Assembly: GCF_000160555.1 (NCBI RefSeq)
Contig: NZ_GG749279.1
Location: forward strand, 1 to 64,000
Source of the DNA: Centipeda noxia ATCC 43541
GTDB lineage: Bacteria; Bacillota; Negativicutes; Selenomonadales; Selenomonadaceae
Direction of reading: 5' to 3'
Length of the DNA: 64,000 nt
Positions 6,437-61,044 of this stretch are shown in pieces; within the stretch, counting starts at the first letter, position 1, and each line of letters starts with the position of its first letter. Below the pieces are notes generated by a model. It ran no database searches. It was given only the letters and a program-made list of their open reading frames with translations, and had not been told where the DNA came from. Position numbers and translations under genes: made by a program.

Positions 6437-6990
6437 TCAAGGAGATTTTATCGAAACACGAAGAAAGCATGAACAAGGCGATTGACGTGCTTCGCCGGGA
6501 GTTCTCATCCCTGCGGGCGGGGCGTGCGACGCCGAACCTGCTGGATAAGGTGATGGTGCCGTACTATGGGACGCCGACGTCGGTGAACCAGCTGGCCAAG
6601 GTAACGGTGCCGGAACCTCATATGATCGTCATTACGCCATGGGAGAAAGAGATTCTGCACGATATTGAGATTGCAATCTCCAAGTCAGATCTCGGGCTCT
6701 CACCGAATTCGGACGGTACGGTGATTCGTCTGGCTGTTCCGCAGCCGACGCAGGAGCGCCGCAAGGAGCTCATTAAAACGGTCGGCAAGAAGACGGAGGA
6801 GGCAAAGGTTGCCCTGCGCAATATCCGCCGCGATGCAAATGAGGCAATCAAGAAGCTCGAAAAGGATAAGGAGATCAACGAGGATGAGTCCAAGCGCGGT
6901 CAGGACTCCGTGCAGAAGCTTGTTGATAAATTTGTGAAGCAGATGGAAGAAATGCGCGCATCAAAAGAAAAAGAGGTCATGGAGATTTGA
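6433..6990 (+). CDS. frr: Ribosome recycling factor
   Basis: 185 residues, the standard RRF length. The pattern [19 protein letters not shown] near the start, the VPYYG..SVNQLA segment, and the basic helix [26 protein letters not shown] are diagnostic. With EF-G it splits post-termination ribosomes. It sits between pyrH and uppS as in most Firmicutes. Its TGA overlaps a possible TTG start of the next small frame. Confidence 0.98.
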
Positions 6991-7235
6991 CGCCGGAACT
7001 CTTTTTAGCATATCCGTGGGATACTGCCAGGAATGCGCTTGAAGCGGAAGGGATCTCTTATGCGGCGGAGAAGACGCATTCTCCGCGCAATTTCTTTCCC
7101 GTTGACGAAGCAGAACTCTATGTTATCCGAATGCACCAGCACAGCGGAGAATGCACGGTTACGCTCGTATCCTCTCCGATGCGGAGTGCGTCGGTCGCCG
7201 CGTATGAAGAGGACTTTCCCGCTGAGCGGGCGTGA
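6987..7235 (+). CDS. Small hypothetical protein between frr and uppS
   Basis: 82 codons from TTG 6987, which overlaps the frr stop (TTGA). An ATG further in would shorten it. The composition and third-position GC resemble neighbouring genes, and it fills the frr-uppS gap exactly, so it is probably translated by coupling. It has no signal peptide and no motif I recognise (note PRNFFPVDEAELYVIRMHQ). Function unknown. A weak hairpin (ACCCCT..AGGGGT, about 7234-7262) follows it. Confidence 0.5.
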   Translation: MTPELFLAYPWDTARNALEAEGISYAAEKTHSPRNFFPVDEAELYVIRMHQHSGECTVTLVSSPMRSASVAAYEEDFPAERA

Positions 7236-7316
7236 CCCCTTTCGGTAAACGCCGGAGGGGTGTTTTGGTCGAATATCGGAGCGATGCCGGTGCAGAGGAG
7301 GACGGAAGGGATAACG

Positions 7317-8111
7317 ATGTGGAGAAAGATATTTGGCGGCGGGAAGAACGCGTCTGTACTCTCTGAGAGGACGGATCCGTCTGACTTCATGCTTGACCGC
7401 ACAAGTATGCCGCGCCATGTCGCTATCGTCATGGACGGGAATGGACGCTGGGCAAAGGCGCAGGGACGTTCGCGCTCGGCAGGCCATGAAGCCGGGGCAC
7501 ATACGCTCAAGCGTATTGTGCGCGCGGCTTCGGATATGGGGATTGAGGTCCTTACGGTCTATGCGTTTTCCACTGAAAATTGGAAGCGGCCGAAGATTGA
7601 GGTCGATTTCCTTCTGAACCTGTTTGATTCCTTCCTTACGAAGGAGATTGCGGAGATGCACGCGGAAAACGTGCGTATCAGCTTCATCGGGCGCCGTGAT
7701 CGATTTACGGATCGTTTTCTGCGCCGCATGCAGGAAGCGGAAGAGCGTACGGCGGACAATACCGGCATTCATTTTAACTTGGCTGCGAATTACGGCAGTC
7801 AGGATGAGATCCTGCGCGCTGCGCGTACGCTTGCTGAACGCGCAGCGGCGGGGGAGATCACCGCTGAGGAAATCGACGAGGAGATTTTTTCCCATGCGCT
7901 TGATACGGCGGGAGATCCTCCTGTCGATCTCTTCATTCGTACGAGCGGCGATCTCAGGCTCAGCAATTTCCTTCTCTGGCAGTCTGCCTACGCGGAACTT
8001 TACTTTACCGATACGTATTGGCCGGACTTTACGCCGGAAGAATTTGCACGCGCCATTGAGGATTTTGCAGGACGGAGCCGCCGGTTCGGCGGGCTGTCTG
8101 CAGAAGGATAA
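7317..8111 (+). CDS. uppS: Undecaprenyl diphosphate synthase (cis-prenyltransferase)
   Basis: 264 residues from the ATG at 7317, preferred because GGAGGACGGAAGGG lies directly upstream. The catalytic motif MDGNGRWAK is at 39-47 (Asp40), HEAGAHTLKRIV and YAFSTENWKRP follow, and the C-terminal DLFIRTSGDLRLSNFLLWQ with the WPDFTPEEFARAIEDF region binds isopentenyl diphosphate. It makes the C55 carrier lipid for peptidoglycan and O-antigen, condensing IPP onto FPP at the membrane surface. It is followed at 14 bases by cdsA. Confidence 0.97.
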   Translation: MWRKIFGGGKNASVLSERTDPSDFMLDRTSMPRHVAIVMDGNGRWAKAQGRSRSAGHEAGAHTLKRIVRAASDMGIEVLTVYAFSTENWKRPKIEVDFLLNLFDSFLTKEIAEMHAENVRISFIGRRDRFTDRFLRRMQEAEERTADNTGIHFNLAANYGSQDEILRAARTLAERAAAGEITAEEIDEEIFSHALDTAGDPPVDLFIRTSGDLRLSNFLLWQSAYAELYFTDTYWPDFTPEEFARAIEDFAGRSRRFGGLSAEG

Positions 8112-47739: not shown

Positions 47740-48300
47740 TATTGAAGCAGGGAGAGGAAATGGATTGAGAGAAGATATTATTATGATATAATTAAAAAGC
47801 GGATTTTTCTGACTGATGTAGTTTAGCAGATGCGGAAAAAAGTTGTTGAAATGGTCTTGAAGTTGGAGAACTTCGCGCAACCTCCTGTGCCCCCATCATT
47901 AGGTTGTATTGATCTATCTGGACTAATATGTGGAACAATTACTGCTAGTGGAAGGTTCGTATGTTGGATGAAGAGCTTGCGGAACTTAAAGATACGATCA
48001 CTTACGACATGAAAAAACAGTGCATAGGAAATCACTATTTTAAATGAGTCTGGGAACCTTCCCTAAAGAAGTTAATTGTATGTGCGTGAACTGAGGTGTA
48101 AAATAGAAAAAGAGACGATTCAATTCTCATGGAAAAATAGTGAGTGCGAAGATGAAGTGAACAGAATAATAAATATTAAAGCGAGGCATAAAAACTTCGC
48201 TAGATCAAGTTCGTGGGAGTGGGCATCAAGAAAAAACACATATGTAGCATATAATCGCTATGATACATCGCAAAAGAGGTCTTTTATATCCACTTTTGCC
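47740..48300 (+). other. AT-rich gene-poor stretch and CRISPR leader
   Basis: About 560 bp visibly richer in A/T than its surroundings. TTGAGA (47765-47770), 16 bp, TGA-TATAAT (47787-47792) is a good plus-strand promoter with no clear gene behind it. Short frames at 47830-48012 (60 codons) and 47961-48047 (28 codons) lie in different frames and could be pieces of one frameshifted gene. The frame at 48076 runs into the first CRISPR repeat, so it is not a normal gene. The last 200 bp, with TATAAT at 48250-48255, is in the place expected for an array leader. I recognise no protein family. Confidence 0.55.
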
Positions 48301-48935
48301 ATCGCGTTCCTATGCGGACGCGCGGATTGAAACATTGAATTTTGTCATGCAAATGGTTGGTCGTGTAAATCGCGTTCCTATGCGGACGCGCGGATTGAAA
48401 CATCTTCGGCAACGTGTTCGGCTGGGTACATCGGATCGCGTTCCTATGCGGACGCGCGGATTGAAACCCATCCTGCGCGTCGTAGCTGCGCGTCTGGATG
48501 CATCGCGTTCCTATGCGGACGCGCGGATTGAAACATCAATCGTGATGAGCACGAGCGCTACATCATGTATCGCGTTCCTATGCGGACGCGCGGATTGAAA
48601 CGTATCTCCTCCATGCCCGTGAACTGGTCGAGCTCATCGCGTTCCTATGCGGACGCGCGGATTGAAACAACAAAGTTGCAGATGCAGCACAATACAGTGG
48701 ATATCGCGTTCCTATGCGGACGCGCGGATTGAAACGCCGTCGAACTGCTCCTCCCAGACGATTTGCTGCATCGCGTTCCTATGCGGACGCGCGGATTGAA
48801 ACTTATGCCCCTTTGTCAACGTACTGGACGCACGCTATCGCGTTCCTATGCGGACGCGCGGATTGAAACCAGTATTTCGGAATGATTACGGTCGTGACCG
48901 ACATCGCGTTCCTATGCGGACGCGCGGATTGAAAC
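48301..48935 (+). CRISPR. CRISPR array: ten 33-nt repeats, nine spacers, type I-C-like
   Basis: Repeats start at 48301, 48369, 48435, 48502, 48569, 48636, 48703, 48770, 48837 and 48903. They are identical, begin ATCGCGTTCC and end GGATTGAAAC. Spacers are 33-35 nt. The internal CGCG..TCC/GGA-CGCG palindrome and ATTGAAAC tail are of the type I-C kind, and put the leader on the left with plus-strand transcription. No cas gene is present in the window, so the array depends on Cas proteins encoded elsewhere or is inactive. Confidence 0.97.
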
Positions 48936-48961
48936 TCCTTGCGGAGCGCGTGGATTAAAGC
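48936..48961 (+). repeat. Degenerate CRISPR repeat abutting the last repeat
   Basis: TCCTTGCGGAGCGCGTGGAT plus TAAAGC resembles the 3' part of the repeat with several changes, and follows repeat 10 with no spacer in between. It looks like the eroded leader-distal end of the array. The GCGTGGATT form is closer to the general I-C consensus than the intact repeats are. Confidence 0.6.
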
Positions 48962-57072: not shown

Positions 57073-57164
57073 GTACCAAAGGTTACAGCCTTTCTTCACC
57101 GACTTGCGTTATAATCGCTGTAAAGAGATGACAAAGAGCAATTTACATAAAAGGAGCTTTGACG

Positions 57165-58607
57165 ATGGAAAAGATACTCGACCTGAAAAAGACGGTCGCT
57201 GAGCTGGTGGAGGAGAATCCCGAGGTTAAGGATATCATGGCGGAGATCGGGTTCAAGGAGATTACAAATCCCGTCGCGCTGAACGTGATGGGGCGCATCA
57301 TGACGATCCCGCGCGGTGCAGCAGTGAAGGGGATCGACCTCGCGAAGGTCATCGCAGCGTTCGAGGGGCGCGGATACACCGTTATCAGTGAGGATACGCA
57401 GTCGCGGCAGGGACGCCTGCGCGGATTCATTGAGCGCCTGTCGAGTGGCGAAGAGCTGGAATCCGTTCGAAAGGACTTCGTGAAGGAGTTCGCCCACGTC
57501 GAGGCGCAAGAGATCATGGAGGCGGAGCAGACTCTCATCAAGGGGGGGATGCCGATCACCGAGGTCCAACGCCTGTGCGATGTGCACTCAGCACTCTTTC
57601 ACGGGGCGGTGGATGCGCCTCCGGGCGCGCTCTCGCACGATGAGATTCATGCGCAGGCTGCATCCGTTGATCCGAATGATTTGGATGCGCTGCCGGAGGG
57701 ACACCCGCTCTCTCTTCTGCGTGCAGAAAACCGTGCGCTCAATGTTTTGCTCGACACGATTGAGGGAGAGCTGGACGGTGCGAAGCGCTCGGATGAGATC
57801 GTGCAGCATATCCTCGCGTTGGGCGATCTGCGCATGCACTACATCAAGAAGGAAGAAATCCTGATGCCGATCCTCTACGACTACGGCGTCACAGGACCCT
57901 CACAGGTCATGTGGGGCGTCGACGATGAGATGAAGCGCGAGCTCAGTGTGATAACGAAGGCGCTTAAAGAGGATGCAGAGACGCTTCCGATGTATGAAGC
58001 GCGCATCCGCGCGCTGACCCAGCGTGTGCGTGAGATGATTTTCAAAGAGGAGAAGATTCTCTTCCCGCTCAGTCTGCGCTATTTTACCGAGATCGAATGG
58101 TATCGCGCCTACCACGATCTGCTGGAGATGGGCGTCTCGTTTGGCATCGCTATTCCCGCATGGCCCGCGGCGCAGCCGTGGCTCGATCAAGAAGAGGAGC
58201 GCCTTGCGCGTTCGCAGGCGGACGGGAAGCTGCAGTTCCCGACGGGAGAGCTCTCGATGGAGCAGCTGACGACAATACTGCAGCTGCTGCCTGTGGATAT
58301 TACCTTCATCGACAAAGACGATGTCGTCCGTTTCTTCACGAACGAGGGACAGGTATTCACGCGTCCAATGTCCGCACTCGGACGGGATGTAATGAACTGT
58401 CATCCGCCCGAGATTATCCCGGTAGTGCGCAATCTGATTGCGGATTTCAAGGCGAAGAAGCGCACGCAGATGATCGTGCACCGCTACATCCGTGAGCGCC
58501 CGATCCGCGTGCACTATCAGGCGATGTACGATAAGGCGGGGGAGTACATCGGAACGGTCGAGTTTGTGACCGACCACGCGGAGCCGCTCGAAAAATTCCG
58601 CCGCTAA
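57165..58607 (+). CDS. DUF1858 + DUF438 (hemerythrin-like) + PAS protein
   Basis: 480 residues from the ATG at 57165 (AAAGGAGC upstream). Order: a DUF1858-like segment (about 1-65, LKKTVAELVEENPEVKDIM..GFKEITNPV), a DUF438 region (about 80-150), a helical hemerythrin-like part with HPLSLLRAENRALNVLLDTIEGEL, MHYIKKEEILMPILYDYG and EEKILFPL (about 180-310), and a PAS domain at the end (about 365-475, LPVDITFIDKDDVVRFFTNEG). The His/Glu set suggests a di-iron centre for O2 or NO sensing; the PAS may bind haem. TATAAT (57110-57115) is the likely -10. Confidence 0.85.
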   Translation: MEKILDLKKTVAELVEENPEVKDIMAEIGFKEITNPVALNVMGRIMTIPRGAAVKGIDLAKVIAAFEGRGYTVISEDTQSRQGRLRGFIERLSSGEELESVRKDFVKEFAHVEAQEIMEAEQTLIKGGMPITEVQRLCDVHSALFHGAVDAPPGALSHDEIHAQAASVDPNDLDALPEGHPLSLLRAENRALNVLLDTIEGELDGAKRSDEIVQHILALGDLRMHYIKKEEILMPILYDYGVTGPSQVMWGVDDEMKRELSVITKALKEDAETLPMYEARIRALTQRVREMIFKEEKILFPLSLRYFTEIEWYRAYHDLLEMGVSFGIAIPAWPAAQPWLDQEEERLARSQADGKLQFPTGELSMEQLTTILQLLPVDITFIDKDDVVRFFTNEGQVFTRPMSALGRDVMNCHPPEIIPVVRNLIADFKAKKRTQMIVHRYIRERPIRVHYQAMYDKAGEYIGTVEFVTDHAEPLEKFRR

Positions 58608-58655
58608 GACGTGACATAAGGATATGACAATACAATGAGTTCTTAGGCATGAACT

Positions 58656-58682
58656 GGCATGAAGCTGTTTCATGCCTTTTTT
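58656..58682 (+). terminator. Terminator after the DUF438 gene
   Basis: GGCATGAA/TTCATGCC stem (58656-58663 with 58669-58676), six Ts. A copy of GGCATGAA also lies at 58647-58654. Confidence 0.85.
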
Positions 58683-58698
58683 GATGGAACTTTCAGCC

Positions 58699-58727
58699 TT
58701 GACATTGGTTATCGAAGTGGATACTAT
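58699..58727 (+). promoter_or_regulatory. Promoter of the UDG-like gene
   Basis: TTGACA (58699-58704), 17 bp, TACTAT (58722-58727). Confidence 0.7.
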
Positions 58728-58758
58728 TATGTTAGAATAAAATGAGGAGGGGACAGAA

Positions 58759-59508
58759 ATGAACAAACGTGAAGCCTATGAAAGTCTTGTACAAGACGCA
58801 CGGAAGTTCTATCAGGAACAGGATGGATCTTCTTTTCTGATGCAGCTTGATGAGACGTTTGGTGTTTGTAAAGAAATTAATCTTTATACCTATTGGCAGG
58901 GCAGAGGATATGCCGAAACGACGCCGGAAATAAAATACTTGTTGGTTGGACAGGACTGGGGCAACCCATATTCTGCGCCGAAGACGTTTCAAGATAGGAT
59001 CAGACAGATTATCAGCGGAAAAGACTTACCGTATATCAGTGACGAAAAGAAAATGGACAGTGGGTTTCAAACGGATAAAAACTTGATTGAGCTCTTTCGT
59101 CATTTGGGTTATGAAATTGCACAACAGCGGTACAATGAGCTTTTCTTTACGAATTTTTGCTTGGGCTACCGGCGTAAAGAAAGCAGCAGGGGTATGACGA
59201 AGAAACGCATGAATAAGGACAGGGAGCGTTTTCAGGAGTTATGTACCATATTGCAGCCAAAGAATATTTTGTGCTTGGGACGTATGAGCTTTGAATGTGT
59301 TTATAAGACACTTGTAAAAGGCTCCAGAATACCATATAAGGGCTATATGAAATATATCGAAGAACATCCACAGATCAACGCGGATCCTGCGTATGGGGGC
59401 GGGGTGATATATCCGCTGGCACATTGCGGCGGTCTTGGGATAAGGAATCGACCATTGGAGCAGCAAATTAAAGATTGGAAGTGGGTCGGGGAGACCTCCA
59501 TGCAATGA
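58759..59508 (+). CDS. Uracil-DNA-glycosylase-superfamily-like protein
   Basis: 249 residues. YLLVGQDWGNPYSAP (about 55-70) sits where UDG has its GQDPY water-activating loop, and VIYPLAHCGGLGIRNRPLEQQIKDW near the end matches the C-terminal loop of this UDG-like subfamily. The central basic/Tyr-rich part is variable. Whether it excises bases is unproven. A/T-richer codons than the neighbours; 21 bases before the macrodomain gene, so they are probably co-transcribed. Confidence 0.7.
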   Translation: MNKREAYESLVQDARKFYQEQDGSSFLMQLDETFGVCKEINLYTYWQGRGYAETTPEIKYLLVGQDWGNPYSAPKTFQDRIRQIISGKDLPYISDEKKMDSGFQTDKNLIELFRHLGYEIAQQRYNELFFTNFCLGYRRKESSRGMTKKRMNKDRERFQELCTILQPKNILCLGRMSFECVYKTLVKGSRIPYKGYMKYIEEHPQINADPAYGGGVIYPLAHCGGLGIRNRPLEQQIKDWKWVGETSMQ

Positions 59509-59529
59509 GATGAAAAAGGAGGGGCTGCG

Positions 59530-60522
59530 ATGTCTCGGCAGGAACGCAGGCGAATCGCGGAAGAAACCATACAGATTACACATCAAGGCAGGTATCAAAA
59601 GCATGGAAAAACAATACTTCTTCCCAAAGAGGACTATAGCGCAGCAATTCTCATAGATGCCAAGGAGGCAAAACGCTGCGGAGAAGTTGTAAAAAATGGC
59701 TGCTCGATATCAGATACGCCCGATATTTATGTCTTGGATGCAGATTCTTTTGCCTGTGCCGAGGGAATGGAGAACGTCCTCGTAATGAATTTCGCCAATG
59801 CACATGTACCCGGCGGAGGGGTTCGAAACGGCGCAAATGCACAGGAAGAATGTTTGTGCAGAGAGAGTACACTCTATCATTCCATAGGCGGCGATGTGGC
59901 ATACGAGATGTATGACTATAACAATCGCCGAAAAAATGCCTGTGATTCAGACTACATGATACTATCACCCCATGTATGCGTCTTTCGGAATCTTCATGAT
60001 GATTTTTTGGATGAGCCGTTTCTGACCTCTGTCATTACGATTCCCGCACCGAACCGCAACGGTGCGGCGCGGGAGGTTTCTCCCGCTGTGCTGTCCCGTG
60101 TAATGAAATCGAGGCTAAGGAAAATGTTTGCCGCTGCCGCAGCGCATGGGTATTCGTCTCTCGTTCTTGGTGCATGGGGATGCGGGGCATTTGGGCACGA
60201 TCCATATAGCGTTGCAAAGTATTTTTATGATATTCTTATGAATGAAGGATATCACAAATACTTTCGGACAATAGCATTTGCAATTATTGATAGAGGTGAA
60301 AAGAAAAATTTTCACGCATTTGCAGATGTATTTCAGGATGTTGGAACAATATGCACCAATGATACATCTGAAGCTGTGACAGCAGTACCGGGATTTTATC
60401 AAACAAGTCATCCGTTCATCATATACAACTTTTCTCAGGAAAACATTTCGCCTGAGAATAAAGGCTATTCTTATGGCACAACGAAGAACGGAATTCCCTT
60501 TATGGCAGAAATCTGGGAGTAG
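59530..60522 (+). CDS. TIGR02452-type macrodomain (PARG-like) protein, ends at an in-frame TAG
   Basis: 330 residues up to TAG 60520-60522. The macrodomain core includes VLVMNFANAHVPGGGVRNGA (loop 1, about 84-103), AQEECLCRESTLYHSI, and the second loop LVLGAWGCGAFGHDP. This matches the TIGR02452 group of ADP-ribose-hydrolysing macrodomains. The last 60 residues (from about 270) fall outside the macrodomain, and the frame stays open after the TAG until 60930. AAAAAGGAGGGG precedes the ATG. The likely role is removal of ADP-ribose from protein or nucleic acid. Confidence 0.83.
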   Translation: MSRQERRRIAEETIQITHQGRYQKHGKTILLPKEDYSAAILIDAKEAKRCGEVVKNGCSISDTPDIYVLDADSFACAEGMENVLVMNFANAHVPGGGVRNGANAQEECLCRESTLYHSIGGDVAYEMYDYNNRRKNACDSDYMILSPHVCVFRNLHDDFLDEPFLTSVITIPAPNRNGAAREVSPAVLSRVMKSRLRKMFAAAAAHGYSSLVLGAWGCGAFGHDPYSVAKYFYDILMNEGYHKYFRTIAFAIIDRGEKKNFHAFADVFQDVGTICTNDTSEAVTAVPGFYQTSHPFIIYNFSQENISPENKGYSYGTTKNGIPFMAEIWE

Positions 60523-60930
60523 ACCGATGGCGATCGGGCTGTGGCATTCTATCTTCCCGTTATGGAAGACTTCATGAAGCTTGAGGGCATGCCGCTTGTC
60601 AATGAAGAAACCGATACGAAGACCTTTTTTGTTCAAAAGCCGGTCAAGGCGTTTCATGCTTTGTGTGTCGGCATGGCGGACGGCGGCATGGTGGACGATT
60701 TAAGCGTTCTGTTTGCTTATGTCAGGTTTTTGGAAGAATGTAATTTGCTTGCGTTTTCAACCGAACTCCCAAATGCGTATGCATTTCTCTTGACGGATGT
60801 GACAGGGCATGATCTGACTGCGATTACAATATCGCTTACCATAGAGGGGGAGACGGTGGCATCTACACCGCTTTCATGGATTCCGTTTCACCATCCGTCC
60901 CCAAAGAGAACACATCTGCATTTGGTGTAG
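60523..60930 (+). pseudogene. Detached C-terminal segment in frame after the macrodomain TAG
   Basis: 136 open codons in the same frame as 59530-60522, ending at TAG 60928-60930. The first possible starts (GTG 60541, ATG 60562) have no ribosome site at a workable distance. The residues on either side of the TAG (NGIPFMAEIWE then GDRAVAFYLPVMEDF) look like one continuous domain, so the simplest reading is a single protein of about 466 residues split by a nonsense mutation. I do not recognise the domain. Confidence 0.6.
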
Positions 60931-60966
60931 TGCATTCAAAAAGGCTCACGGAAGCACATTGATCGA

Positions 60967-60998
60967 AGCCTGTCAAGAAAAATACTTGACAGGCTTTT
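60967..60998 (+). terminator. Terminator after the macrodomain region
   Basis: An 11-bp perfect stem AGCCTGTCAAG/CTTGACAGGCT, then TTTT. Its 3' arm carries the -35 of the next promoter. Confidence 0.82.
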
Positions 60999-61014
60999 CG
61001 TTTGCCGTTATAAT
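60986..61014 (+). promoter_or_regulatory. Promoter of ylxM-ffh, nested in a terminator
   Basis: TTGACA (60986-60991), exactly 17 bp, TATAAT (61009-61014): full consensus. The -35 is the 3' arm of the terminator stem. Confidence 0.88.
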
Positions 61015-61044
61015 CGCAGAAGTGTTTATAGGTGGGTGATGTGT

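Follow-up and report, generated by a model that had tools for sequence, protein, structure and literature searches.

The AT-rich cassette that lies between a DUF438 gene and ylxM-ffh in the window (the whole stretch of 64,000 nucleotides that was analysed) moves between species, and the UDG-like domain that it encodes is recurrently coupled to ADP-ribose hydrolases. The cassette was tentatively interpreted as a laterally mobile, two-enzyme conflict (anti-invader) module; this reading, for which we infer both the substrates and the defence activity, was given slightly less than an even chance of being correct.

The inserted DNA occupied approximately positions 58608–60965 (no strand assigned), as delimited by empty sites in related genomes and by synonymous divergence, and there was no clear target duplication at its boundaries. 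It was preceded by the DUF438 gene (57159–58607; PF04282, 4.8e-26) and followed by ylxM-ffh, beginning at 61036. Measured in 1-kb windows, G-C content was 0.44–0.46 over the cassette vs 0.55–0.58 in the flanks. Among 50 long ORFs in the window, where third position G-C content (GC3) averaged 0.63 (sd 0.064), the two lowest values belonged to ORF A (0.486) and ORF B (0.412). ORF A (58759–59508, +; 249 aa) was identified as UDG-superfamily-like through Pfam, alignment and predicted fold. ORF B (59530–60522, +; 330 aa) was identified as a TIGR02452 or bacterial-type PARG protein with the arrangement GGG-(7)-QEE, and ends in an in-frame TAG. Comparison with orthologues showed that ORF C (60523–60930, +) is the C-terminal domain of B, cut off by that TAG.

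The preliminary description had credited the pair with one promoter and one terminator, and the first of these survives in part. A sigma-70-like promoter of the cassette (TTGACA-17-TACTAT, 10/12; 58699–58727, +) arrived with the insert; the count of promoter-like sites across the cassette stretch equalled the shuffle mean, and this site is weak taken alone. The proposed terminator, a hairpin with a T run (AGCCTGTCAAG...CTTGACAGGCT; 60967–60995, +), overlaps the ylxM promoter (60986–61014, 12/12 match); it was found in the empty sites also and is therefore ancestral to the site and no part of the insertion. Another terminator-like hairpin with a T run, 5' of ORF A (58656–58682, +), was absent from the empty sites printed, and terminator-like sites in the cassette stretch showed no excess over shuffles. 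The surroundings of the Selenomonas cassette were housekeeping genes, with no defence island. PADLOC matched none of A, B and C, and PHROGs gave nothing of value for them. Elsewhere in the window, a CRISPR-like array of 10 repeats (ATCGCGTTCCTATGCGGACGCGCGGATTGAAAC) with a spacing of 66–68 bp was observed in a low-GC stretch at 48300–48953.

Comparison of 14 genomes from the genus, the window's own included, showed that A and B were both present at the DUF438-ylxM site in five. In seven congeners the site was empty, with ~85–270 bp separating DUF438 from ylxM, and the cassette was therefore interpreted as an insertion. One genome (G030) had B alone beside a scar of A, while in another (G034) the site was occupied by other DNA and DUF438 was not close by. 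The AT-rich insertion that had been proposed, with codons richer in A/T than those on either side, was thus borne out by G-C content, by GC3 and by the seven empty sites.

Rates of substitution showed that the cassette had a history distinct from that of its flanks. In comparisons of the window with four sister species, dS was 0.095–0.15 for A and 0.085–0.21 for B, vs 0.8–1.2 for the flanking genes clpB, glnN, DUF438 and ffh; the short flanking gene rpsP had a lower value (0.24–0.63). DNA identity was correspondingly ~0.95 within the cassette vs ~0.85 outside. Given that its dS was far below that of most flanking genes, the cassette must have been exchanged laterally between species after their divergence. 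Both A and B were under purifying selection (dN/dS = 0.1–0.5). When plotted on an ffh tree, in which several forks were unresolved, the presence of the cassette was scattered. At another locus in G035 (L081, ~6570–7540), a shortened A and a fragment of C were present; B was missing there, and the flanking genes are presumably lexA and a cobalamin gene. The scans of plasmids, phage records and IMG/VR that were used recovered no relatives of A.

ORF A was a sub-threshold match to the UDG family in Pfam (PF03167; 0.0066, 17 bits, under the cut-off of 24.3 bits), and a relative in G024 scored above that cut-off (29.6 bits). Membership of UDG family 4 was considered and rejected, the score against TIGR00758 being 14.7 bits vs a cut-off of 125.3. 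An AlphaFold model of A, built from eight sequences, had a pTM of 0.76 and a mean pLDDT of 66, with low confidence at residues 68–75, beside motif 1. Its top match in the PDB was the family 4 UDG of S. tokodaii (4zbx; Z = 14.1, rmsd = 3.7, 184 residues), and all 50 PDB matches listed belonged to the UDG superfamily (family 4, TDG, SMUG1 and UdgX). Foldseek identified the same fold as VIA-align (E = 5.5e-6), with TM-scores by query length that were modest (0.39–0.53). A UDG fold is therefore predicted for protein A, which agrees with the UDG-like assignment made from motifs in the preliminary description.

Five elements of A were kept in 14 relatives: Q65-D66 (within GQDWG), N132 (within FFTN), LCLG, H222 and R231. 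In UDG family 1, the catalytic Asp is found at position 3 of motif 1, and D66 is the candidate catalytic residue of A. A profile of the family (A1) produced no match below E = 0.26 among PDB sequences; in the weak alignment at that value, N132 fell on N82 of 4zbx and H222 on the motif-2 His. The former residue contacts uracil in the S. tokodaii enzyme (PMC11078745). Judged by alignment, A would thus have conserved polar residues at the superfamily positions of the base-binding Asn and the catalytic His, in addition to the invariant Asp of motif 1. The clade of A, which is marked by the GQDWG motif and is described here for the first time, is a distinct clade of putative glycosylases.

The assignment of ORF B to the PARG family was upheld by strong matches to TIGR02452 (3.7e-56; 190.6 bits, cut-off 50 bits) and PF10021 (3e-30), and its catalytic signature, GGG-X-QEE, reads PGGGVRNGANAQEE. 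The S. infelix orthologue (L003) matched the catalytic domain of T. curvata PARG (3SIG, 2.4e-41), with the signature aligned, and a B orthologue likewise matched that of D. radiodurans PARG (5ZDB, 5e-35). From these sequence matches, B is a bacterial-type PARG with predicted ADP-ribosyl hydrolase activity.

The two genes that had been recognized at this site are both present, but the second is truncated. Where the window has TAG (60520–60522), CAG is found in S. felix, S. infelix, Selenomonas sp. FOBRC6 and G030. Uninterrupted B comprises 466 aa in the three sister species, reading IWE-Q-TDGDRAVAF across this point, and the G030 gene also encodes 466 aa. It follows from this continuous frame that B has been truncated in the window and that 60523–60930 belongs to it. 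The C stretch of the window was still 92–95% identical to sister species, with dN/dS of ~0.2, and the stop is therefore probably recent. S. massiliensis has lost the same domain through a deletion. The C domain had no match in a Pfam search; PARG proteins of G007, G012 and G018 end in the same domain (~35% identity), and a single additional ORF (G116) contains it. Structure prediction for full-length B gave a pLDDT of 37.

The UDG-like domain was found in 21 of 189 genomes of the bacterial family (Selenomonadaceae), with many copies situated in long open frames. A class-level search showed that the family of A is nearly confined to this one bacterial family, and of 398 genomes in a wider phylum sample only three contained it, one of them as a weak match. 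Beyond the genus of the window (g1) and another genus (g3), ARH was fused or adjacent to the UDG-like domain in nine of nine informative loci, i.e., those with enough contig, as detected with profiles made in this analysis. The fused proteins combined the UDG-like domain with ADP-ribosylglycohydrolase ARH (PF03747, 1e-29 to 8.5e-39), which preceded the UDG-like domain in one group and followed it in another, and sometimes included an SseB-like domain; these fused loci are not fully independent, since all come from one bacterial family and most from one genus. In five of the nine loci a Macro gene (PF01661, 1e-25) stood beside the fusion, although it was broken in L076. PARG was a member of the cluster in two (L073 and L075), and a WYL regulator in three (L069, L075 and L077).

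Other copies had different associations. In all five g3 loci the partner of the UDG-like domain, by fusion or adjacency, was a nucleoside-deoxyribosyltransferase domain (PF05014, 6.7e-15). No ADP-ribose hydrolase was found near these five copies, near the HTH-UDG protein of G024, or near the three Lachnospiraceae-type copies of Butyrivibrio and RUG334. A domain tree separated the ARH-coupled, g3, G024 and Butyrivibrio/RUG334 groups. The association of UDG-like domains with ADP-ribose hydrolases is recurrent. The direct fusion of the two, and PARG as a partner, are new here. Pairing had been suggested previously from a single locus, and the survey extends it to fused proteins and to gene clusters that involve three hydrolase families. 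Lack of recurrence, or a base composition like that of the neighbours, was looked for as evidence against that suggestion, and neither occurred.

Several other gene arrangements were observed in the course of the survey. DUF1643, whose NPS and HPL motifs recall UDG, was evaluated as a second UDG branch, and this received no support (hhalign probability 0.3%, no PDB match). An ARH-DUF1643 fusion was located behind a WYL-type regulator in L069 (9637–11886, -) and L095 (3797–6043, +), and the same pairing, judged by position, was seen in G015, G118 and G141. In G074, a TIGR02452 PARG with a C-terminal match to PF03496 (L073, 10381–11652, -; whole-protein E = 1.7e-9) clustered with ARH and a UDG-like gene; PF03496 is an ADP-ribosyltransferase fold, such that this protein combines a hydrolase with a transferase-like domain, in which the ExE motif looks incomplete by eye. 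G131 had ARH fused to the type I restriction methylase HsdM (L097, 4392–6809, +; PF03747 2.4e-33, PF02384 1.1e-95), followed 3' by what appeared to be further restriction-modification genes. G007 had a Macro gene between two long PARG genes (L085, 4132–10708), with a WYL regulator nearby on the opposite strand, and a similar PARG-Macro-PARG cluster in G012 included DUF1643.

Relatives of A were also found in the company of defence genes. The copy in Butyrivibrio sp. M55 was situated 3.5 kb after a complete Gabija system (GajA 2.6e-183, GajB 7.5e-202), behind PDC-M09A, with a phage-type integrase downstream. The RUG334 copy had PDC-S11 (1.1e-110) and a gene for an N6 DNA methylase (N6_Mtase) in its neighbourhood. 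Directly 5' of the latter UDG-like copy, a protein with no Pfam family (L006, 3345–4079, +) matched A1 weakly (0.0008) and, on visual inspection, had motifs resembling those of UDG.

The closest parallels are Brig1 and Brig3. Brig1 is a UDG-superfamily protein that removes alpha-glucosyl-hmC from T4 DNA; its best structural match is the S. tokodaii family 4 UDG (4ZBX/4ZBY), and it is encoded beside a predicted ADP-ribosyl glycohydrolase (PMC11078745). Brig3 excises 5hmC after BapA has taken the glucose off, and is also encoded near a predicted ADP-ribosyl glycohydrolase, which was dispensable against the phage tested (PMC13160076). The cassette and its relatives share with both the UDG superfamily, a predicted hydrolase neighbour and a defence-island setting (here in Butyrivibrio). 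The likeness of A to Brig1 is one of predicted fold and gene context, the nearest solved structure being the same. The partner, however, is PARG in the window and a fused ARH or Macro in relatives; furthermore, A has N132 at the putative base-binding Asn position, where Brig1 has E147, and its motif 1 is GQDWG. Among bacterial-type PARGs (3SIG, 5ZDB, TIGR02452), B resembles the others in its whole catalytic domain and GGG...QEE signature, but differs in its extra C-terminal domain, severed here by a stop, and in the UDG-like gene upstream. Bacterial PARGs reverse ADP-ribosylation at the 2'-OH of RNA and protect E. coli from the RNA-targeting ART toxin RhsP2 (PMC11833690).

Two further comparisons were less close. 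Loci built around ARH, which combine it with WYL or Nudix regulators and with SseB-like and Macro components, have been proposed to counter viral ADP-ribosylation; the main text of that study mentions neither a UDG-like component nor TIGR02452 (PMC9503650). Relatives of the cassette combine ARH, an SseB-like domain, Macro and a WYL regulator in the same manner, but the window cassette has no ARH and no WYL or Nudix regulator. The preliminary description had drawn an analogy with DarT/DarG, with which the cassette shares a macrodomain-fold ADP-ribose hydrolase and a link to nucleic acid. This analogy was not supported: the other gene of the cassette encodes a UDG-fold protein and not a transferase, B is PARG-type and not DarG-type, there was no match to PF14487 (DarT) in the window genome, and DarT occurred in only 2 of the 21 genomes carrying the cassette or its relatives, on other contigs. 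The accompanying suggestion that the pair handles ADP-ribosylated or otherwise modified nucleic acid fares better in its second part, which is consistent with Brig1 and Brig3 (PMC11078745, PMC13160076).

As a conflict module, the cassette would attack a modified genome and undo ADP-ribosyl sabotage from a single locus. In the DNA of an invading phage or plasmid, A would hydrolyse the N-glycosidic bond that holds a non-canonical base, leaving abasic sites as Brig1 and Brig3 do. B would hydrolyse O-glycosidic ADP-ribose adducts, either at the 2'-OH of ribose or of the poly-ADP-ribose type, that had been set on host RNA or protein by ADP-ribosyltransferases of the same invader. In relatives, ARH or Macro would stand in place of PARG. 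T-even phages have hypermodified bases together with ADP-ribosyltransferases, and a mobile unit directed against both would therefore make sense (see also PMC9503650). That three hydrolase families replace one another speaks for a role in general clearing.

The main rival to the conflict module is repair, in which A would free the cell's own DNA or RNA of ADP-ribosylated or otherwise adducted bases by excision and B would strip ADP-ribose from ribose or phosphate, both clearing the damage done by ART toxins. The presence of UDG-like and ARH domains in one polypeptide suggests linked substrates and keeps this explanation alive, unlikely as it was judged. To our knowledge, no DNA glycosylase removes ADP-ribosylated bases, which counts against it, as does the absence of DarT from the genome and from nearly all carriers; moreover, the known reversal of base ADP-ribosylation is by DarG-type macrodomains or NADAR, with no UDG. 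PARG, ARH and macrodomain enzymes do have activity on RNA and DNA ADP-ribosylation (PMC11833690), which favours repair. A further, doubtful reading is that the UDG-fold clade has the ADP-ribose hydrolase as its regular partner and that the two act in sequence on one substrate, the decoration (ADP-ribose or pentose) being taken off a nucleobase before the base is excised. If true, ADP-ribosylated nucleic acid would be processed by an unmask-and-excise or excise-and-clear pathway, which some bacteria would contain in single fused proteins. In a separate unmasking explanation, the hydrolase would strip a ribosyl-, arabinosyl- or ADP-ribosyl-like group from hypermodified phage bases and expose the base to A. 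PARG cleaves a ribose-O-glycosidic bond, which suits such unmasking, and so does the tight coupling through fusion in relatives. However, PARG and ARH bind the ADP part of their substrate and we know of no phage base modification that has one. Even with the precedent of brig3-bapA (PMC13160076), unmasking was considered very unlikely, the interchange of PARG, ARH and Macro being a better fit to adducts on many targets than to a single base decoration.

The g3 loci raise the possibility that the UDG-like domain is an N-glycosidase on free nucleotides or on derivatives of NAD or ADP-ribose, and that the pair acts in salvage or signalling, given that a nucleoside 2-deoxyribosyltransferase family is its partner at each of the five. 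Action on small molecules is nonetheless quite improbable: the predicted fold and, weakly, the pocket residues are of the DNA glycosylase type, relatives occur in defence islands, and lateral mobility with decay is unlike a metabolic gene. Finally, the UDG-like gene and PARG might be unrelated in role and share only a mobile hotspot. G030 keeps PARG alone, G035 has remnants only, and ADP-ribose hydrolases are widespread in the family, with PARG in 70 and ARH in 124 of the 189 genomes. With one to four such genes per 2–3 Mb genome, however, chance alone would place a hydrolase no more than 5 kb away at an estimated ~1% of loci, and the fusions are repeated, take two orders and are accompanied by clusters with three hydrolase families; mere chance was regarded as a highly improbable cause of the association.

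The authors of the Brig3 study set the hydrolase neighbour aside. With UDG-fold domains directly fused to an ADP-ribose hydrolase, and with PARG, ARH and Macro trading places as partners, the connection can scarcely be dismissed, and the proteins involved offer small constructs that are open to testing. Confirmation would establish a bacterial unit that both strikes at modified phage DNA and undoes ADP-ribosyl sabotage, or alternatively a means of removing ADP-ribosylated bases by base excision, and would assign a function to many bacterial PARG genes that are so far unexplained.
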